A DNA stretch of 64,000 nt from a bacterium BMS3Abin02. Its GTDB lineage: Bacteria; Actinomycetota; Acidimicrobiia; Spongiisociales; UBA4744. The stretch lies in the NCBI GenBank assembly GCA_002897675.1, contig BDSU01000045.1:149282-213281 (forward strand), written 5' to 3'. Shown here piece after piece: positions 29,548 to 51,227 of the stretch. The notes beneath the pieces are model-generated. The model saw nothing but the letters and a program-made list of their open reading frames with translations. It was not told where the DNA came from and searched no databases. Position 1 is the stretch's first letter. Every line of letters starts with the position of its first letter. A program made the translations under genes and the position numbers.

Positions 29548-29642
29548 TGGCGGAGGCGGACGGGAATCGAACCCGCCGGGGACCTTTCGACCCCCCACCG
29601 GTTTTGAAGACCGGGGAGCCCACCAGGCGCTCGTTCGCCTCC
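29548..29642 (-). tRNA. selC: tRNA-Sec (anticodon TCA), CCA encoded
   Basis: A 95-nt tRNA including G73 and encoded CCA. It has an acceptor stem GGAGGCG/CGCCTCC, a long D stem, an anticodon stem-loop CCGGT-CTTCAAA-ACCGG with anticodon TCA, a long variable arm (GGGG/CCCC) and a T arm CGGGTTCGATTCCCG. Length, long acceptor/D stems and UCA anticodon are diagnostic for selenocysteine tRNA. The organism should therefore insert selenocysteine at UGA; selA, selB and selD are not in this window. Confidence 0.95.
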
Positions 29643-41361: not shown

Positions 41362-41415
41362 GGCTGCTTGTCTTCGCGGGCTGAGGGCGCCTCTGGGATC
41401 GGACCCTTCATATGA

Positions 41416-42172
41416 TCACGCAATCGGTACCCACACCAATGCAATCTCGTCGACGGTGGCATCGGTTTCCTCCAGGTCGATCTCGAGCGTCTCGATCGAG
41501 GCGGCCGCATTGTTCCACTTGTCCATGATCTCCGTCACGTCTTCGGCAAGTTCGGTTTCCAGGTCGTCCAAGGCAGTGGCCCTGTCCGAGTATCGCTTTT
41601 GCGCTGCGCAGACGTTCCTGCGTTCGCACCGTCTGCGATCTGCGGGAAGCCACTCCCGAGAGGCTGCATGATCCGCGCTTGCCGCTCAGGAGGGCCGACA
41701 ACAACTCGCCTGCCCCCGCGATGAGCTCCTGCTCGGGTCGGGCCTGCGTGTCCACTTCGAGGTCGCGGATCCGGCGCCGGGCAGCGGCGAGTTGACTTCC
41801 CACTTGACCGATCTTGACCCTGTAACGATCTCTGGGTTTCGCCATGGCGGCGAGCGTATCGACATCTTCACCCTTGCGGTGCGCTTCACCCTCGTCGATC
41901 CATGGCCGAAAGTCGTGCGCGTCGAGCTTTGGAAACGTCAGCAGGAGGTTGCCGATGTCTCCCTTGGGATCGATGGCGAGCACCGGAATGCCGGACAGCA
42001 GCGCTTCCTCGAGGGCGATGATGCCGAGACCGGTCTTGCCCGATCCGGTCATTCCGACGATCACGCCGTGGGTGGTGAGACGGTGACGTTCATACAGGAC
42101 CGGTTTCGCCGGGTCGTGTTTGCCGGTGGTCGGGTTCAGCGCTCCGCCGAGGTATAACTCTTCGATGTCCAT
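41416..42172 (-). pseudogene. HerA-like ATPase (DUF87/DUF853 type) with internal deletion and frameshift
   Basis: The start is intact: ATG 42172, ribosome site [20 protein letters not shown], Walker [10 protein letters not shown] and Walker B-like VLAIDPKGD. After about 115 residues it jumps to the family's C-terminal coiled region ([28 protein letters not shown]). Intact relatives have roughly 500 more residues between. The last 60 codons need a further frame change near 41597-41610, after which the frame reads a family-like end, [12 protein letters not shown]. Two independent lesions make a pseudogene the best reading. Confidence 0.75.
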
Positions 42173-42266
42173 GGGTCCTCCTGGAAGCCGGATACTACGG
42201 ACGAGCGTCGGCCCCGTGAAGGCGGGCGCGGGACCCGTTGCAGTCGAGAGCCCTCGGCGTGTCACG

Positions 42267-43609: not shown

Positions 43610-44812
43610 TCACCCGGCGAGCATTGGGAGCAGCCGCCGTCGCAGCACCTTGTACGAGAAGTGCTGGAGGCCGATCTCGTAGTTGCGCTCGACGATCTCG
43701 GTCCAGGCTCCAGGACCTTCGAGCCATGTGGCGACCTGCTCCACCGCGGCGCTGCTGAGCCGACCGTCCACCTCTATGCATGTGATGCCGGTCGGTGCGA
43801 TGTCGCGAACGTACACGGGGTAGCGGTTCACGAACACGGGACGGCGGTAGTAGACGGCTTCGAGCAGCGCGTTGCCGAAGCCTTCGATACGACTCGGGAA
43901 CGTGACGAGATCGGCGGCCGCGTATGCCTCTTCGAGACTGGGTCGGCCCGGCTCGCCAGTCGGGACGAGTCGGAGGTCCACGTTCAGACGTTCCGCCCGG
44001 TCACACAGAAAGCCCCAGTAGTCGCCCTCCTGGTCGCGTTCGGGATGGGTCACGACCACCTTGATGTGTGGGTCCGCCAGCTGATGGGCCAGCTGGAGGG
44101 TCAGCTCGATGTTCTTGCGGGGGATCCGCCTCGTCGACTGCAGCAACACCAGGTCTCCTGTCTGAAGGCCGGCTTCGGTACGGAATCTGGTGGGGTCGGC
44201 CCGTTCGGGCGGGTGCTCGAAGTCCATCACGTTGGGCAGCAGAGTCGCGGCGATGGCGCGCCGACGGGCGAACTCCTCGCGGGCGAGCGAATTGATGACG
44301 ATGTGCTGCATCCTGGGGGCTGGAGGGGGAAACGCCCCGTACAGGATGTCGGGCACGGCGTTCGGCCAGAACCTGGTGCGTTCCCAGAAGAAGTCGTGAT
44401 GGTGAGAGATGGAGGGGATGTTGGATTCGAGGGTGAAGTCGGTGATGCCGACACCGAGGGGCAGGTGCATCGGGATCGACAGTGCGTTCTGAGGCATGAG
44501 CAGGTCCACGTCGAAGTCGCCGACGAACGTGTGCAGTGCCCGGTTGATGGCGGCCGCCTCGGCTCGCACCTGCTCGATGGTCCCGGCCGGCCGGGTGTCC
44601 CGGCCGAAGCTGCGGCGCTGGAGGTCCCGGTTCTGGTCGGTGCCGAAGAACGCCGGCGGGTACTCGATGCCAGGCCGGTACTGCGGTCCGAGCTTCCCTG
44701 CGAACCAGACGATCTGATGACCGGCCTCTTCGAGCACCTGGGCGACCTTGCACGTCTCCAACGTGACCCCGTCGAGGCCGGCGAACCTGGTCGAGACCAT
44801 GCCGATGATCAC
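43610..44812 (-). CDS. GT-B glycosyltransferase (GT4-like)
   Basis: A 400-residue retaining-type glycosyltransferase. The N-terminus IIGMVSTRFAGLDGVTLE is the first Rossmann half with its glycine loop; the C-terminal half has ADLVTFPSRIEGFGNALLEA, the EX7E motif that binds the sugar nucleotide. The start STRFAG-DGV recalls mannosylglucosylglycerate synthase-type enzymes, but this is from memory of wording and unproven. GTG at 44812 overlaps the permease stop by 4 nt, so it is part of the transporter operon. Confidence 0.8.
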   Translation of the reverse strand: MIIGMVSTRFAGLDGVTLETCKVAQVLEEAGHQIVWFAGKLGPQYRPGIEYPPAFFGTDQNRDLQRRSFGRDTRPAGTIEQVRAEAAAINRALHTFVGDFDVDLLMPQNALSIPMHLPLGVGITDFTLESNIPSISHHHDFFWERTRFWPNAVPDILYGAFPPPAPRMQHIVINSLAREEFARRRAIAATLLPNVMDFEHPPERADPTRFRTEAGLQTGDLVLLQSTRRIPRKNIELTLQLAHQLADPHIKVVVTHPERDQEGDYWGFLCDRAERLNVDLRLVPTGEPGRPSLEEAYAAADLVTFPSRIEGFGNALLEAVYYRRPVFVNRYPVYVRDIAPTGITCIEVDGRLSSAAVEQVATWLEGPGAWTEIVERNYEIGLQHFSYKVLRRRLLPMLAG

Positions 44813-45675
44813 CCTTTGACACCTCCGGCGGTGAGGCCTTCGGTGAGGAAGCGTTCGGCCGCGAAGAACAGGATGATGACCGGAAGGGTGACGATCACCG
44901 ACCCGGCCATGAGCAGGGTCTTGGGAACCTCCACGGTGTTCATCTGCTGGAGACCCAGGGCGACCGTCCACAGGTCACGTCGCTCGATGAGGAACAGCAG
45001 GGCGAAGAGGAACTCGTTCCACGCGATCATGAAGATGTAGAGCGCAACGGCGGCGATCGCGGGCGCCGACAGCGGCAGGGTGATCTTGCGGATGACACCG
45101 AAGCGCGAGAGGCCGTCGATGAGGCCCGCCTCCTCCAGCGACGCGGGGATCGTCTCGAAGTGGCTTCTCAGCATGTAGAGCGCGACCGGAATCGTCTGTG
45201 CCAGATAGACGATGATCAGACCCGTCAGCGACGACCGCAGCCCGACCTTCGAGAAGAGCACGAACAGCGGGATGGCGATCACGACTGCGGGGAACAGGTA
45301 GACGAGCAGGATTCCCCAGCTGATCGCCTTCTTGCCGGAGAAACGCATGCGAGCGGCGGCGTAGGCGGCGAAGATCGCAAGCGTGGTGGTGACGATCACG
45401 GTGACCACGCTGACGATCGCACTGTTCTTCACGAACACGCCGAATCCTTGACCTCCGGTGAGGCCCGAGCCGAGCACCTCCTTGTAGGTGACGAGGCTCT
45501 TGATCTGCTCCCACGGGGGGAACAATCGAGCCGGGTGGAGAAGCAGCTCCTGGATGGACCGGAATGACAGGCCGAACATGTAGATGAGTGGGAAGAGCGT
45601 GATGACGATGAAGAAGATGATGCTCAGCCATTTGAGGACACCGAAGAGGCGTTCTTCGAAGACGGCGCGACTCAT
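44809..45675 (-). CDS. Carbohydrate ABC permease, MalG type
   Basis: A 288-residue inner-membrane permease with six helices. The EAA loop reads EEAGLIDGLSRFGVIRKITL, which docks an ATPase. Together with the MalF-type gene (4-nt overlap) it forms the channel for the lipoprotein at 46680-48146. No ATPase gene is in the cluster, so a shared MsmK/UgpC-type ATPase elsewhere must energise it. Confidence 0.9.
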   Translation of the reverse strand: MSRAVFEERLFGVLKWLSIIFFIVITLFPLIYMFGLSFRSIQELLLHPARLFPPWEQIKSLVTYKEVLGSGLTGGQGFGVFVKNSAIVSVVTVIVTTTLAIFAAYAAARMRFSGKKAISWGILLVYLFPAVVIAIPLFVLFSKVGLRSSLTGLIIVYLAQTIPVALYMLRSHFETIPASLEEAGLIDGLSRFGVIRKITLPLSAPAIAAVALYIFMIAWNEFLFALLFLIERRDLWTVALGLQQMNTVEVPKTLLMAGSVIVTLPVIILFFAAERFLTEGLTAGGVKG

Positions 45676-46631
45676 GCCTCATCCTCCTCGTAGAACCACT
45701 TGAAGTAGACGAACAGCAGCACCATGAGGATCGCTGCAAGAACGAGTCCCAATGCAGCCGCCGCACCGATGTCGCCGCGTCCCCGCAGCCACTCGATGAT
45801 CTTGACGGTGATGACTTGCGTGCCGGCGGCCCCGCCGGTGAGCAGGAAGATGTCGTCGAACTTGTTGAACGTCCAGATGAAACGGAGAAGAAACAGCACC
45901 GAGAAGACTCCTCGGAGCTGCGGGAGGGTCACGTACCAGAATCGCTGACTGAGGGTGGCGCCGTCCACCATCGCTGCCTCGTCGAGTTCCGCCGGAATCG
46001 CCTGGAGTCGGGCGAGGATGAACAGGAAGGCGAACGGAAAGTACCGCCAGCCTTCGAACAGGATCACCATCGTGAGTGCGAGCGGCACCTTGAGGTGGGC
46101 TCCGAACAGGGAGAGCTCGTAGAAGCGGGTACCGAGAAAATCGATGCGCTGCCCGCCCGCCGCGGCGATCCACTCGTTGGCGATCCCGAATGTCTGGTTC
46201 AGCATGAGCTGCCAGACGAAAGCGGCGGCGATCACCGGCGTGACATACGGGAACAGCATGAGCCCCCGCACGAGCGAGCGTCCCCGGAATGTTCTTCGAA
46301 CGACGAGCGCCGCCCACAGGCCCATGACCATCGACAGGATCGTGCCAAACACCGTGTATTCGAGGGTCGTCCAGATGGTCTGCCAGAAGTCGCGCACTCC
46401 GACGACGGCCCTGAAGTTCCTCAGGGTCCCCTCGAAGCGGAAGAAGTTGATGTGTTGGAGATCAATGAGCCGGAGCCGCTGAAGACTCAGCGAGATGTTC
46501 CAGATGACCGGGAACAGAACGAGCCCCAGCACGATGATCGCAGCGGGCAGGACGAAGATCCAGGCGAGACGTGCCTCGCGCCTTGCGAGAGTTCTCCGCT
46601 TCTTGGGGGGTGCTGATGTGGGAGCTGCCAT
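45672..46631 (-). CDS. Carbohydrate ABC permease, MalF type
   Basis: A 319-residue permease with six helices after a basic N-terminal tail (PPKKRRTLARRE). The EAA loop is DEAAMVDGATLSQRFWYVTL. It starts 48 bp after the binding-protein gene and overlaps the MalG-type gene by 4 nt. Partner of the two neighbouring genes. Confidence 0.9.
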   Translation of the reverse strand: MAAPTSAPPKKRRTLARREARLAWIFVLPAAIIVLGLVLFPVIWNISLSLQRLRLIDLQHINFFRFEGTLRNFRAVVGVRDFWQTIWTTLEYTVFGTILSMVMGLWAALVVRRTFRGRSLVRGLMLFPYVTPVIAAAFVWQLMLNQTFGIANEWIAAAGGQRIDFLGTRFYELSLFGAHLKVPLALTMVILFEGWRYFPFAFLFILARLQAIPAELDEAAMVDGATLSQRFWYVTLPQLRGVFSVLFLLRFIWTFNKFDDIFLLTGGAAGTQVITVKIIEWLRGRGDIGAAAALGLVLAAILMVLLFVYFKWFYEEDEA

Positions 46632-46679
46632 GCGAACTCTGAGAGGAGGGGGACGCCATCGCGTCCCCCTCCTCGTGCG

Positions 46680-48146
46680 CTATTTGAGCAGTTCGAGTTC
46701 CTGCTCGACTTCGGCTTGTAGGTCGGCTGCCGCAGTCTCGGGCGTGAGCGTTCCGTCGAGGACGTCCCTGATCGCCTTCGGAACCGGCAGTGACGTGTAG
46801 ATCGCGGTAACCAACTGCCCCTGTCCCTGGAGGAATCCCCAGCGCTGGAAGTTGTCGGCACCTGCGATCAGCTCGTTGATGACCTCTGGGCTGTAGAAGT
46901 CGCTCAATGGTGCCTTCCGATCGACACCTGTCTTGAGATCCTTCCACCCATCGATGAACTTCGTCGGATCGTCGGGCGTGCCGCGGCGCATCGGGAACTT
47001 GCCTTCCACCGAAGTGGAGAGCCAGTCGAGATAGCCGTCACCCAGCCAGAATTCGATGAACTTCTTTGCAGCATCGGTGTTCGAGCCCGTACCGATTCCC
47101 AGGTAGGAGATCTGTCCGTACTGGGCGGGTGAACCGTTCGGTCCGGCGAACGCCGGGACGAATCCCGAGTTCTTTGCCAGATAGGCCGGATCGTTCACAC
47201 ATTCGGGGCAGGTCGGCAACGCCGAGTCGCGCAGGCCCGCCATCTCGTCCATGATGAAGGGTGACCACACGATCATCGCCGCCTGGCCCGCAAAGTACGT
47301 CGCCCGAGTCGTCACCACGTCCTGGGTGCCGCCGGGGCTGTAGTTCTTCAGCAGGTTCGTGTAGAAGCGGATCGCCTCGATGCACTCGGGCGTGTCGAGA
47401 GTGACGTTGCCGGCATCGTCGGTGAGCTGACAGTCGTTCGCCAACGCGAAGTGCTCGAACGTCTGTTGGGTGAACACCGCTCCGGCATCCGTCGACGCCG
47501 TGATACCGTAGAAGTTGTTCCCCGGATCGTTGAGCGTCTTGGCGGCCAGTTCGATCTTCTGGTACGTGTCCGGGCGGTCCAGACTGTTCGCATCGAACAG
47601 GTCCTGGCGGTAGATCAGCAACTGACCCCAGCCGTCAGACGGAACGGCCGCCACCGTGCCGTTGACCGTGGCCATGTTGAGTGCACCTTGGGCGAACGTA
47701 TCCGCGCCAAGGTCCTTGACGACCTCGGCCGCCGCATCCATGTCGAGCAGCCCTTGCTCCGCCCATCCGACGGTGAAGTCGATCGGATGGAACACGACGT
47801 CCGGGAGTGTCCCGCTCGCCGCTGCCGCCACCATCGTCTCGGGGAGCGCATTCTCATCGACGTACACGGGGATGACGTTGATACCCGTCGCCGCGGTGAA
47901 GCGGTCGATGATGCCCTGGGTGATCTGGACACGCGCCGGTTGTGTCTCGGTACTCCAGAAGGTGATCGTCGGTGTCTCGACCTCGACTGTCTTGGTCTCG
48001 GTGACGATCGAGGTGACCGTCTCACCCGGAACCTGGACGGTGACCGTCACCGTCTCGGGGGTGACCTCACCAGTTGTACCGCCGCAGGCCACGGCGATCA
48101 TCGAGAACACGACCAATACCAGCAGTGCGCCTCTCCATCGTTTCAT
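46680..48146 (-). CDS. Extracellular solute-binding lipoprotein (family 1)
   Basis: A 488-residue binding protein. A signal peptide with lipobox IAVAC places the lipidated Cys at 21. A short Thr/Val-rich linker (VTVTVQVPGE) then leads to a two-lobed sugar-binding fold (ITFWSTETQPARVQIT, NGTVAAVPSDGWGQLLIYR). ATG at 48146 is set by AAGGAGG in the leader. Ligand unknown; the operon suggests glucosylglycerate or a related glucoside. An inverted repeat at 48176-48199 lies in the leader. Confidence 0.92.
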   Translation of the reverse strand: MKRWRGALLVLVVFSMIAVACGGTTGEVTPETVTVTVQVPGETVTSIVTETKTVEVETPTITFWSTETQPARVQITQGIIDRFTAATGINVIPVYVDENALPETMVAAAASGTLPDVVFHPIDFTVGWAEQGLLDMDAAAEVVKDLGADTFAQGALNMATVNGTVAAVPSDGWGQLLIYRQDLFDANSLDRPDTYQKIELAAKTLNDPGNNFYGITASTDAGAVFTQQTFEHFALANDCQLTDDAGNVTLDTPECIEAIRFYTNLLKNYSPGGTQDVVTTRATYFAGQAAMIVWSPFIMDEMAGLRDSALPTCPECVNDPAYLAKNSGFVPAFAGPNGSPAQYGQISYLGIGTGSNTDAAKKFIEFWLGDGYLDWLSTSVEGKFPMRRGTPDDPTKFIDGWKDLKTGVDRKAPLSDFYSPEVINELIAGADNFQRWGFLQGQGQLVTAIYTSLPVPKAIRDVLDGTLTPETAAADLQAEVEQELELLK

Positions 48147-48175
48147 AGTTCCCTCCTTAATGAGTCGATGTGGGG

Positions 48176-48199
48176 ATTCACCGCGCTCGGACGGTGAAT
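48176..48199. promoter_or_regulatory. Inverted repeat, candidate operator
   Basis: ATTCACCG at 48176-48183 and CGGTGAAT at 48192-48199, perfect 8-bp arms with an 8-bp spacer, 30 bp upstream of the binding-protein start. Position and symmetry suit a repressor site. A weaker hairpin AGCCC-GGGCT lies directly beside it. No regulator gene is in the cluster. Confidence 0.45.
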
Positions 48200-48264
48200 A
48201 TGAGCCCCTCCTCCTGGGCTTGTTATCGACCCTACCAATGCTGGGCGTGTCGTGCAGAGAGGAT

Positions 48265-49932
48265 TTAGATTTCCGTGAGCCAGAGTGACTGCCATCCGCC
48301 GAGCACAGGCGCGGGCCGATCACCGGTGAGCTGCCGCCACGATCGGGTGAGGTGGCGGACATCGATGGGTGTAGGTGTCGTATTGACGAGAACCCGAGCG
48401 GCCGTGTCGGTCGCTCGCCGTTCGATTGCCACGAGGCCGCGGGGTGCGTCGAGGACACGCTGTTGGGCATCCGGCGCAAAGGCTGCATGGCGGCGTCGCC
48501 ATTCGAGCATCCTCCGCAGTCCGCACAGGATGCGGTGCGCCCTTGTCGCGCCGTCCTGGAGACGTCGCTCGAGTGCGTCGGCATCGTCGAACCTGTGCCG
48601 GTTGAGGCTTCGTCGCAAACCGGTCCGTTCGTACGCGCGGGCGTCATTGTCGGTGCCGAACAGGCTGTGAACGTACACCGCGGGGATGCCGCGAAGAGCG
48701 AACATGATGGCGTGGCTCGCAAGGTGTCTGGCGATCGCCTCCTCTTCGTCGTGGCCGACGGCCAACAGATCGAACCACGTCGCGTTGAGCTCGTACGGAG
48801 ACGTGGCACCGTCGCTCAACGTGCGTTCTCCCACAGCCCCGCCCGATGCGACCGAGAGGTCGCACAGGGCGCCGATCTGGTTTCGGGTGAGGAGTCCCTC
48901 GACGGGACGTACTCCGACACCGTCGTGAGAGGCGAGGAAGTTGAGGAAGGTGGTGCCGGGTCGCGTATCGAGGGATGCCGCCCATGTGGTGAGGGTCGTC
49001 GTGTCTCCGGTCGCGAACGTGTGAAGGACCAGCGGCGCAAGAGGGAACTGGTAGACGATGTGTGCCTCCGGTCGCTCGGCCGAACCGAAATAGGAGATGT
49101 TCTCGTCATGGGGGACGTTCGTCTCGGTGAGGACGAGCGTCCCCGGATACGTGGCGTCGAGACATGAGCGGATGAGCTCGACGAACGCGTGGGTCTGCGG
49201 CAGGCTCATGCAGGACGTGCCGAGTTCCTTCCAGACGAGCGCGATCGCGTCGAGTCGGATCACCGACGCTCCGTGCGCCGCGTAGCCGAGAAGTACGCGG
49301 ATCATCTCCAGGAGAACGTTCGGGTTGTGGTAGTTGAGATCGACCTGGTCGGTCGAGAATGTGGTCCAGACCCATCGTTGGCCGGTCGCCGATGCGAATC
49401 GTGTCAGCAGTGGTGTGGTCCGCGGGCGTACGACACTCGTCAGGTCGGTGTTTGGATCGGCGGTCAGGAAGTAGTCCTCGTAGGCCGGATCACCGGAGAG
49501 ATAGCGCCGGAACCAGATGCTTTCGGCCGACAGGTGGTTGACGACTGCATCGAGGGCGAGGCGGTGCCGCTCGGCGAGCGCCTCGATGTCACTCCACGTT
49601 CCATAGACCGGGTCGACCGTGGTCGGATCGATGACCGCGAACCCGTCATCGGAAGACCACGGGTAGAACGGCAGCACGTGCATGCCGTTCATCCAGAGGG
49701 AGAGGCGGTCGTCGAAGAAGGTGTGCAGCGTCTGCAGCGTCGGTTCTCCGGGCCGTCGAAACTGATCCGGATAGGTGATGACCCACGCGTCGTGCTCATC
49801 CCAGAGATCGCCGGCTTCGCGTCCGGATCGATGTTCATCGAGGAGGCGTTCGAGGTGTGACGCAGTCTCCGGTGCGGCAGGCCCGTAGAGCAGGTCGAGT
49901 ATCTCATGGCGTCTTTCGGGCGGACTCACCAT
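48265..49932 (-). CDS. GH13_18 glycoside phosphorylase, probably glucosylglycerate phosphorylase
   Basis: A 555-residue GH13 enzyme of the sucrose-phosphorylase subfamily. The nucleophile is Asp228 in VIRLDAIALVW, acid/base Glu270 in VLTETNVPHDENISYFG, and the third carboxylate Asp337 in LASHDGVGVRP. The ETNVPH-ENISYFG wording is that of glucosylglycerate phosphorylases rather than sucrose phosphorylases. The adjacent glycerate kinase supports the reaction glucosylglycerate plus phosphate to glucose-1-phosphate plus glycerate. ATG 49932 or GTG 49929 both overlap the kinase stop. Specificity remains an inference. Confidence 0.8.
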   Translation of the reverse strand: MVSPPERRHEILDLLYGPAAPETASHLERLLDEHRSGREAGDLWDEHDAWVITYPDQFRRPGEPTLQTLHTFFDDRLSLWMNGMHVLPFYPWSSDDGFAVIDPTTVDPVYGTWSDIEALAERHRLALDAVVNHLSAESIWFRRYLSGDPAYEDYFLTADPNTDLTSVVRPRTTPLLTRFASATGQRWVWTTFSTDQVDLNYHNPNVLLEMIRVLLGYAAHGASVIRLDAIALVWKELGTSCMSLPQTHAFVELIRSCLDATYPGTLVLTETNVPHDENISYFGSAERPEAHIVYQFPLAPLVLHTFATGDTTTLTTWAASLDTRPGTTFLNFLASHDGVGVRPVEGLLTRNQIGALCDLSVASGGAVGERTLSDGATSPYELNATWFDLLAVGHDEEEAIARHLASHAIMFALRGIPAVYVHSLFGTDNDARAYERTGLRRSLNRHRFDDADALERRLQDGATRAHRILCGLRRMLEWRRRHAAFAPDAQQRVLDAPRGLVAIERRATDTAARVLVNTTPTPIDVRHLTRSWRQLTGDRPAPVLGGWQSLWLTEI

Positions 49933-51227
49933 CGCCAGACGACCCACACGTCTCCGACGTTCGTGCCCGTCGGTCCGGTCATGAGCAGATCGCCGGTCGC
50001 CCGGAGGTACGGGTACGCGTCGTTGTGTTCGAGAGCCGCCGATGCGTCGAGGCCGCGGGCTTGGCCACGCGAAACGGTTGAACCGTCGACGATCGCGCCG
50101 GCGGCGTCCGTCGGTCCATCGACACCGTCGGTTGCGAGCGCCGCGAACACGATGTTCGGACTGCCCTCGATGGCGATGGCTGCCGCCAGCGCCGCCTCCT
50201 GATTGCGCCCGCCCTGGCCCTCACCATGCACGGTCACGGTGGTCTCGCCCGCAAAGATCGTCACGTCGGTGCCGGCACCGTCGACGCAGCCGACAGCTGC
50301 TTCCCGGGCTTCACCGGTGAGCGTCGTCGTGGCGACGGTGGCCGACAAACCGCCGCGTTCCGCGGCCTGTCGGGCTCCCTCCGCCGCAGTCGCGCCGTCG
50401 GCGATGATCACGACCTGGTGGTGAGGAAGGTTCGTCTTGGGCGTCTCGGCGATGGCGCCATCGGCACCGAGGCGGAGGTGTCGGCAGACCCTGGGAGGCA
50501 CCAGGTGGGTGAGTCTGTAGCGTGCCAGGATGTCGAGCGCATCGGCGTAGGTGGTTGGATCGGCGACGGTCGGGCCCGAGGCGATGAAGGGAACCGGGCT
50601 GCCCACGACATCGGAGAGCACCAGAGTGACCAGGTGCGCAGGGGCCACCGCCTGGGCGAGGCGACCGCCTTTGAACGCCGATAGGTGGGTTCGCACCGTG
50701 TTGATCTCTTCGATGGGCGCACCCGACGCCAGCAGCAGCCTGACGGTCTCCTGGAGGTCTGAAAGCGTCAGGTCCGACGCGGGGATTTCCGCCAAGGCGG
50801 AACCTCCACCTGAGATCAGACAGACCACGAGGTCGCTCGCCGTTGCTTCCGAGCCGAGCCGGAGCAGGCGGCGCGCTCCGGCGACACTGCGGTCGTCGGG
50901 GAGTGGGTGACCGGCCAGCACGAGTTCCAAGGGACGGGGGAGAGGTTCCGGATGATTCGAAATCACCAGACCGGCGTCGATGGGAAGCGTGTCCGCAGCG
51001 GCGCGGGCCATGGCCGGAGCGGCCTTGCCAAAGGCCAGCACGATGGTGCGGTCGATGTTCACCATGTCGACGCCCCCGATCGGCACCGTGTCGTCGCCGA
51101 GTTGCAGGTGCCGTGCAACTGCCCGATAGGGATCGACCTCGTCTAGGGCTCCGATGAACAAGTCCAGGATCAGCGCACGATGCTTCGGATCGTTTCGGAG
51201 GATGCCAGGGTCGAAGAGTGCGGTCAC
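49926..51227 (-). CDS. Glycerate 2-kinase, MOFRL family
   Basis: A 433-residue kinase of the GckA/MOFRL type. LVVCLISGGGSALAEIP, FIASGPTVADPTTYADAL, and GETTVTVHGEGQGGRNQE are the family motifs. It phosphorylates D-glycerate to 2-phosphoglycerate with ATP. It overlaps the GH13_18 gene, whose expected product is glycerate. GTG 51227 is chosen over TTG 51236; neither has a clear ribosome site. It is first in the cluster, after a 266-bp gap containing a strong hairpin. Confidence 0.9.
   Translation of the reverse strand: MTALFDPGILRNDPKHRALILDLFIGALDEVDPYRAVARHLQLGDDTVPIGGVDMVNIDRTIVLAFGKAAPAMARAAADTLPIDAGLVISNHPEPLPRPLELVLAGHPLPDDRSVAGARRLLRLGSEATASDLVVCLISGGGSALAEIPASDLTLSDLQETVRLLLASGAPIEEINTVRTHLSAFKGGRLAQAVAPAHLVTLVLSDVVGSPVPFIASGPTVADPTTYADALDILARYRLTHLVPPRVCRHLRLGADGAIAETPKTNLPHHQVVIIADGATAAEGARQAAERGGLSATVATTTLTGEAREAAVGCVDGAGTDVTIFAGETTVTVHGEGQGGRNQEAALAAAIAIEGSPNIVFAALATDGVDGPTDAAGAIVDGSTVSRGQARGLDASAALEHNDAYPYLRATGDLLMTGPTGTNVGDVWVVWRW

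Follow-up and report, generated by a model that had tools for sequence, protein, structure and literature searches.

Glucosylglycerate (GG) is made by marine cyanobacteria and by other bacteria short of nitrogen, and we know of few routes by which other organisms use it. In a 64,000-nucleotide stretch of the genome of the actinomycetotal bacterium BMS3Abin02, hereafter the window, a sequence-only reading had pointed to a six-gene operon for the uptake and phosphorolysis of such a solute, and within it to a puzzling member, a transferase of biosynthetic appearance encoded together with an importer. What would an enzyme that looks made for synthesis do at the end of an uptake operon, and does it belong there at all? 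Many organisms carry a gene for glucosylglycerate phosphorylase (GGaP) yet are not known as GG makers, according to Franceus and Desmet (PMC7178133); the present locus suggests that one lineage holding this gene obtains GG by import.

Six genes read in one direction

All six genes were found at the place claimed for them, co-directional on the minus strand at 43610-51227, with identities assigned at family level (Table 1). Overlaps had been claimed at four of the five joints; only three proved to overlap (7, 4 and 4 nt, the last joining the GTG start of the transferase to the stop of permease 2). Elsewhere 118 nt separate phosphorylase from lipoprotein, and 48 nt lie between lipoprotein and permease. 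Measured against a congener (G001), dN/dS ranges from 0.04 to 0.24 across the six genes, and all six are under purifying selection. Taken with a core order that recurs in relatives, these ratios indicate at the sequence level that the gene set is more than chance. Insertion of the transferase by chance was rejected in view of its conservation in relatives and its own dN/dS of 0.14.

Table 1. Genes of the window operon, and regulator genes beside the importer in related loci (prefixed L)
Feature	Position	Strand	Details
Glycerate 2-kinase (DUF4147 + MOFRL)	49926-51227	-	GTG start; Pfam DUF4147 1.4e-77, MOFRL 2.3e-37
GH13_18 phosphorylase, glucosylglycerate-phosphorylase type	48265-49932	-	ATG start; TETNVPH, loop A PYELN
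Sugar ABC importer binding lipoprotein	46680-48146	-	SBP_bac_1 1.5e-22; lipobox VAC; E. coli YcjN 2.7e-38
ABC permease 1, MalF/UgpA-like	45672-46631	-	BPD_transp_1 1.3e-13
ABC permease 2, MalG-like	44809-45675	-	BPD_transp_1 1.2e-18; 4-nt overlap each side
GT4 (GT-B) transferase, MggS-like	43610-44812	-	GTG start; NF041101 207.6 bits, cut-off 640
GntR + SBP_bac_1 fusion beside importer	L179:7636-9072, L178:10040-11473, L037:4692-6173, seven more loci		

Phosphorylase and glycerate kinase

In PMC7178133, GGaP is told apart from sucrose phosphorylase by (T/S)ETN at strand beta-5 and by loop A, in which Glu replaces Gln and the N(L/V)D(I/L/V)YQ motif is absent; the loop A motif has been used likewise for recognising GGaP (PMC10608839). 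The window enzyme carries both marks, reading LTETNVPHDENISYFG at the first and SPYELNATWFD in loop A, where the sucrose-phosphorylase motif is absent, and the acid/base motif claimed for it, ETNVPHDENISYFG, is present in the protein. PYELN or a close variant is found in nearly all complete phosphorylase homologues. These two published motifs support the view, already taken in the sequence-only reading, that the GH13_18 enzyme is a putative glucosylglycerate phosphorylase.

The PDB chains nearest to it are glucosylglycerol and sucrose phosphorylases, and Pfam and NCBIfam call it alpha-amylase/sucrose phosphorylase-like and nothing finer. This naming, together with an importer specificity that leaves room for other sugars, is what could be said for ordinary sugar uptake, in which the phosphorylase would act on sucrose or another glucoside and the transferase would be present by chance. 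We regard this as very improbable, because both GGaP motifs are there and the sucrose-phosphorylase loop is not, and because the transferase is linked to GGaP in several phyla and kept under purifying selection.

The kinase has both domains of a MOFRL-type glycerate 2-kinase, and it matches NCBIfam glycerate 2-kinase models (5.8e-64) below their curated cut-offs (NF041176, 216.8 of 550 bits; NF040791, 183.7 of 670 bits), these models being clade-specific, judging by their names. The proposed link between the two enzymes, in which glycerate would be the product of the one and the substrate of the other, is supported at family level.

The transferase resembles mannosylglucosylglycerate synthase

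The last gene product matches the NCBIfam model of mannosylglucosylglycerate synthase (MggS; NF041101) along its full length, residues 1-392 aligning with positions 1-425 of 431, at 207.6 bits (2.7e-61), and the next-best model reaches 31.6 bits. It fails the curated cut-off of 640 bits, which Thermotoga maritima passes; six tested relatives of other lineages score 214-263 bits. The enzyme is therefore MggS-like and not a proven MggS; with a score this far under the cut-off and a clade set apart by a long stem branch, it may have changed its donor or its acceptor. The earlier suggestion of MggS thus holds for the full-length match and for the clustering with MggS, and does not hold at the curated threshold. 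Profile scores and the phylogeny, which had been called for, together place the transferase on the side of MggS, away from cell-wall enzymes.

The importer-linked transferases of the window's taxonomic order form one strongly supported clade, which includes that of G100, where no importer lies nearby. The sister group of this clade consists of Planctomycetota and Verrucomicrobiota transferases (support 86, 82), a relation that is provisional, the tree having been built by a quick method with long branches flagged. All family-invariant residues are kept (R9, D14-G15-V16, E19, K22, N109, H138-H139-D140, R228, R232-K233, E310 and E318), including the invariant E310-E318 pair of the GT4 E(X7)E motif, and the AlphaFold model (pLDDT 89.8) has a GT-B fold that resembles the GT4 enzymes WaaG, GlgM, MshA, BshA and PimA.

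A working analogy for a transferase encoded beside an importer of its own product is TreT, a GT4 enzyme that sits beside a trehalose/maltose importer in Thermococcus; it is reported to act reversibly, and in Thermococcus litoralis its gene reportedly accompanies that of a trehalose importer. It differs from the window transferase in its sugar and has no close sequence kinship with it: a search of the PDB with the single transferase sequence (phmmer) gave no match, TreT included, and a profile match to TreT is weak and partial (E 0.0035). Membership of TreT was rejected on these grounds, and a cell-wall or lipopolysaccharide transferase was rejected as well, no such model coming near the score of the MggS profile.

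Conservation in the window's taxonomic order

Of 395 genomes of the class, 17 carry the transferase, all of them in one taxonomic order and distributed over four families. In each of the 13 assessable loci of this order the transferase is the last gene after a sugar importer, and GGaP adjoins this run of genes, upstream or divergent; the remaining four loci break off at contig ends, in three cases next to the regulator. Lipoprotein, two permeases and transferase are contiguous in 12 loci, while in L178 a regulator gene separates permease 2 from the transferase. Only the window's family and G010 (two families) have the kinase next to the cluster, so that the conserved unit is one of five genes with an optional kinase; a survey of the six-gene order, as had been proposed, thus bears out the five-gene core in 13/13 loci and not the kinase. 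Among 59 relatives, six genomes carry the transferase; these and a seventh (G002) have an orthologous GGaP, and G002 shows kinase, GGaP and lipoprotein before the contig ends. Judged by these neighbourhoods, the transferase is a conserved partner of the kit and not a stray.

Two neighbouring observations concern single relatives. In L048 (G003:C39), positions 104-1942 hold a kinase and then a GGaP stub (residues 44-128) that runs into the last 54 residues of the transferase, which is either the remnant of a collapsed operon or a chimeric contig. In G005 a GH1 beta-glucosidase gene (L038:984-2339) lies directly before GGaP, a neighbour that the window does not have.

Importer and regulator

The importer is of CUT1 type, with a binding lipoprotein, whose best PDB match is YcjN of E. 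coli, and two permeases. No dedicated ATPase gene lies within the six-gene cluster, and a MalK-type ATPase with an OB domain, encoded elsewhere in the genome on contig C37, could serve as its energiser. In the loci of ten relatives the cluster is adjoined by a regulator that joins a GntR winged-helix domain to an SBP_bac_1 solute-binding domain (Table 1); none stands beside the window cluster. By its domain composition, the fusion seems to sense the transported solute through an importer-type binding domain, and its presence in these relatives suggests induction by a nutrient, not by osmotic stress.

Probable import in place of synthesis

Glucosyl-3-phosphoglycerate synthase (GpgS; NF010496) exceeded its cut-off in none of the 17 transferase-carrying genomes of the order (best 59 bits against 262), of which 11 are at least 90% complete and several are incomplete drafts, so that single absences are weak. 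De novo GG synthesis was not found elsewhere in the window genome. GpgS is present in 7 of 12 genomes of other lineages, and three more of the 12 (L087, L102, L113) have a divergent GpgS-like gene beside the transferase, matching profile positions 100-288 at 50-57 bits. The gene of cluster c17 (L087:6356-7588, also at L054, L056, L060, L102 and L113) has no Pfam match and stands at transferase loci missing GpgS; its weak match to the GpgS profile, over the C-terminal two thirds, makes it a candidate for a divergent glucosyl-3-phosphoglycerate synthase.

On an Anaerolineales chromosome (Chloroflexota; L105), permeases, two transferases and GGaP stand in a row and GpgS is absent, while its relative L120 has two transferases with GpgS and no importer at the locus. 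Together with the result for the 17 genomes, this exchange indicates that an importer has taken the place of GpgS as supplier in two lineages separated in the tree; judged by gene content, these cells seem to draw their GG from import rather than from synthesis. No other observation argues as strongly for GG, or a derivative of it, being what the transferase acts on.

A scan of GTDB genomes gave 364 relatives of the transferase, of which the best 80 were fetched. Among these best 80 of 364, a GGaP-type phosphorylase lies within 3 kb of the transferase in 32, and in 22 of the 41 loci from other phyla that have 3 kb on both sides; every non-fragment phosphorylase at those loci carries TETN. An importer near the transferase in Spirochaeta (L115) was judged to belong to a neighbouring, unrelated sugar locus and was excluded from the counts. 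In Verrucomicrobiota, Planctomycetota and some Thermodesulfobacteriota, many of the loci with GGaP nearby also have GpgS, a HAD phosphatase, another GT4 that looks unrelated and an M20-like protein; the one GpgS tested, that of L058, scores 391.5 bits against the cut-off of 262. Rhodopirellula baltica, a planctomycete, accumulates mannosylglucosylglycerate (MGG) (PMC3694870), its tie to these loci being through the phylum.

Marine Opitutia and Planctomycetota share a conserved locus (L058:1403-8189, with similar ones among L061-L090, L098 and L103) that comprises GpgS, an MggS-like GT4, GGaP, a second GT4 without NCBIfam match, an M20-peptidase-like protein and in some cases a HAD phosphatase. 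Two diverged MggS-like transferases per locus occur in Thermodesulfobacteriota and Chloroflexota (L050-L053, L054, L056, L060, L113, L105, L106 and L120), which suggests two successive sugar additions or differing acceptors.

Possible remaking or dismantling of the solute

We propose that the operon scavenges a glycosylglycerate solute and that forward transfer by the MggS-like enzyme makes an MGG-type solute which is kept, a reading that we hold to be probable, if only just. GG or mannosylated GG would enter through the lipoprotein and permeases, served by a shared MalK-type ATPase. Inside the cell the phosphorylase would cleave GG by phosphorolysis, yielding glucose 1-phosphate and glycerate, and the 2-phosphoglycerate that the kinase forms from glycerate would enter glycolysis. 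The transferase would draw on the same pool of GG, most likely adding a hexose, probably mannose from GDP-mannose, and its product would be a mannosylglucosylglycerate-type solute retained by the cell, with import standing in for synthesis by GpgS. We infer the steps of import, phosphorolysis and glycerate phosphorylation from family knowledge, and likewise which solute is transported, which sugar donor serves, which way the transferase runs and what becomes of its product. Forward transfer is preferred because the family is found elsewhere with GpgS and a phosphatase. A predicted ManC-like gene is encoded in the genome, which is weak evidence since GDP-mannose has other uses. Of the salvage-and-remake circuit originally envisaged, the salvage part is well supported, and the remaking, for which ManC and the retained invariant residues speak, is plausible and unproven; so far as sequence can tell, none of the outcomes that the sequence-only reading had itself listed as fatal to it was encountered.

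The same genes could also be read as catabolic, with MGG being imported and the transferase running backward, so that mannose is passed to GDP; GDP-mannose would be formed, and the GG set free would go to the phosphorylase and then the kinase. We consider this a serious though improbable alternative. It would line up all six genes in a single pathway, free of any futile cycle, in which the energy of the two glycosidic bonds is preserved, and it fits with the kinase lying in the same gene run in the window, with the GntR-type regulators that adjoin the cluster in relatives, and with the genome, in which no MGH1-type hydrolase to take off the mannose was found. The absence of GpgS agrees equally well with import of the finished solute, and co-transcription of phosphorylase and kinase with the transferase fits catabolism better than storage. 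However, the family occurs elsewhere in a synthetic setting, with GpgS and phosphatase, no description of reverse activity of MggS was found in the open-licence literature, and the sequence link to the reversible TreT is weak. The specific claim that imported MGG is stripped of its mannose onto GDP, in a hydrolase-free breakdown yielding GDP-mannose and glucose 1-phosphate, we find doubtful. If true, it would mean that an osmolyte is dismantled without hydrolases and with both glycosidic bonds conserved, and we know of no earlier hydrolase-free, GDP-linked breakdown pathway for glycosylglycerates.

A further alternative, which we think unlikely, is that GG is a primer that the transferase extends to diglucosylglycerate, a polysaccharide or a glycolipid while its neighbours recycle or supply GG. 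Mycobacterial methylglucose lipopolysaccharides do have GG at the reducing end (PMC4555173), and related loci of other phyla have an extra GT4 gene, some of them two transferase copies, but the window operon lacks a second transferase as well as any methyltransferase, acyltransferase or branching enzyme, and its transferase matches MggS and not polymer-elongating enzymes.

Relation to known systems

The ycjMNOP genes of E. coli resemble the window in their set of functions, the gene of a GGaP-type phosphorylase preceding those of a binding protein and two permeases (YcjNOP), and the window lipoprotein is nearest to YcjN; the ycj operon differs in its other carbohydrate genes (ycjQ-V, ompG), and we know of no glycerate kinase or MggS-like transferase there. 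The substrate of YcjM is glucosylglycerate (PMC6599011). With MGG synthesis in Petrotoga mobilis, which proceeds through GpgS, a phosphatase and MggS, the window shares GG as an intermediate and the full-length match to the MggS profile, whereas it has neither GpgS nor phosphatase, has an importer and GG-degrading enzymes, and encodes a transferase far under the MggS cut-off. The clusters of Franceus and Desmet have in common with it the phosphorylase signatures and a neighbouring glycerate kinase; the neighbours named in the accessible part of that paper are glycerate kinase, GpgS and GpgP (PMC7178133), to which the window adds an importer and an MggS-like transferase.

No description of the combination of importer, MggS-like transferase and GGaP was found in the open-licence literature. 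The comparative results that are new here are the linkage with GGaP in other phyla and the exchange of GpgS for an importer in the window's taxonomic order. That an MggS-like transferase accompanies GGaP in several phyla gives a lead to the function of many unnamed GT4 genes, and we anticipate that the locus allows a clean test between remodelling of a solute and its hydrolase-free breakdown.

Other features of the window

At 41408-42265 on the minus strand lies a HerA/DUF87-like ATPase gene whose middle is missing (residues ~108-629 of the 781-residue homologue in L178). The gene is intact in the congener G001 (L034:13678-16014), and the window copy is either a pseudogene or the product of an assembly gap. 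ARAGORN predicted a selenocysteine tRNA at 29552-29640 on the minus strand.
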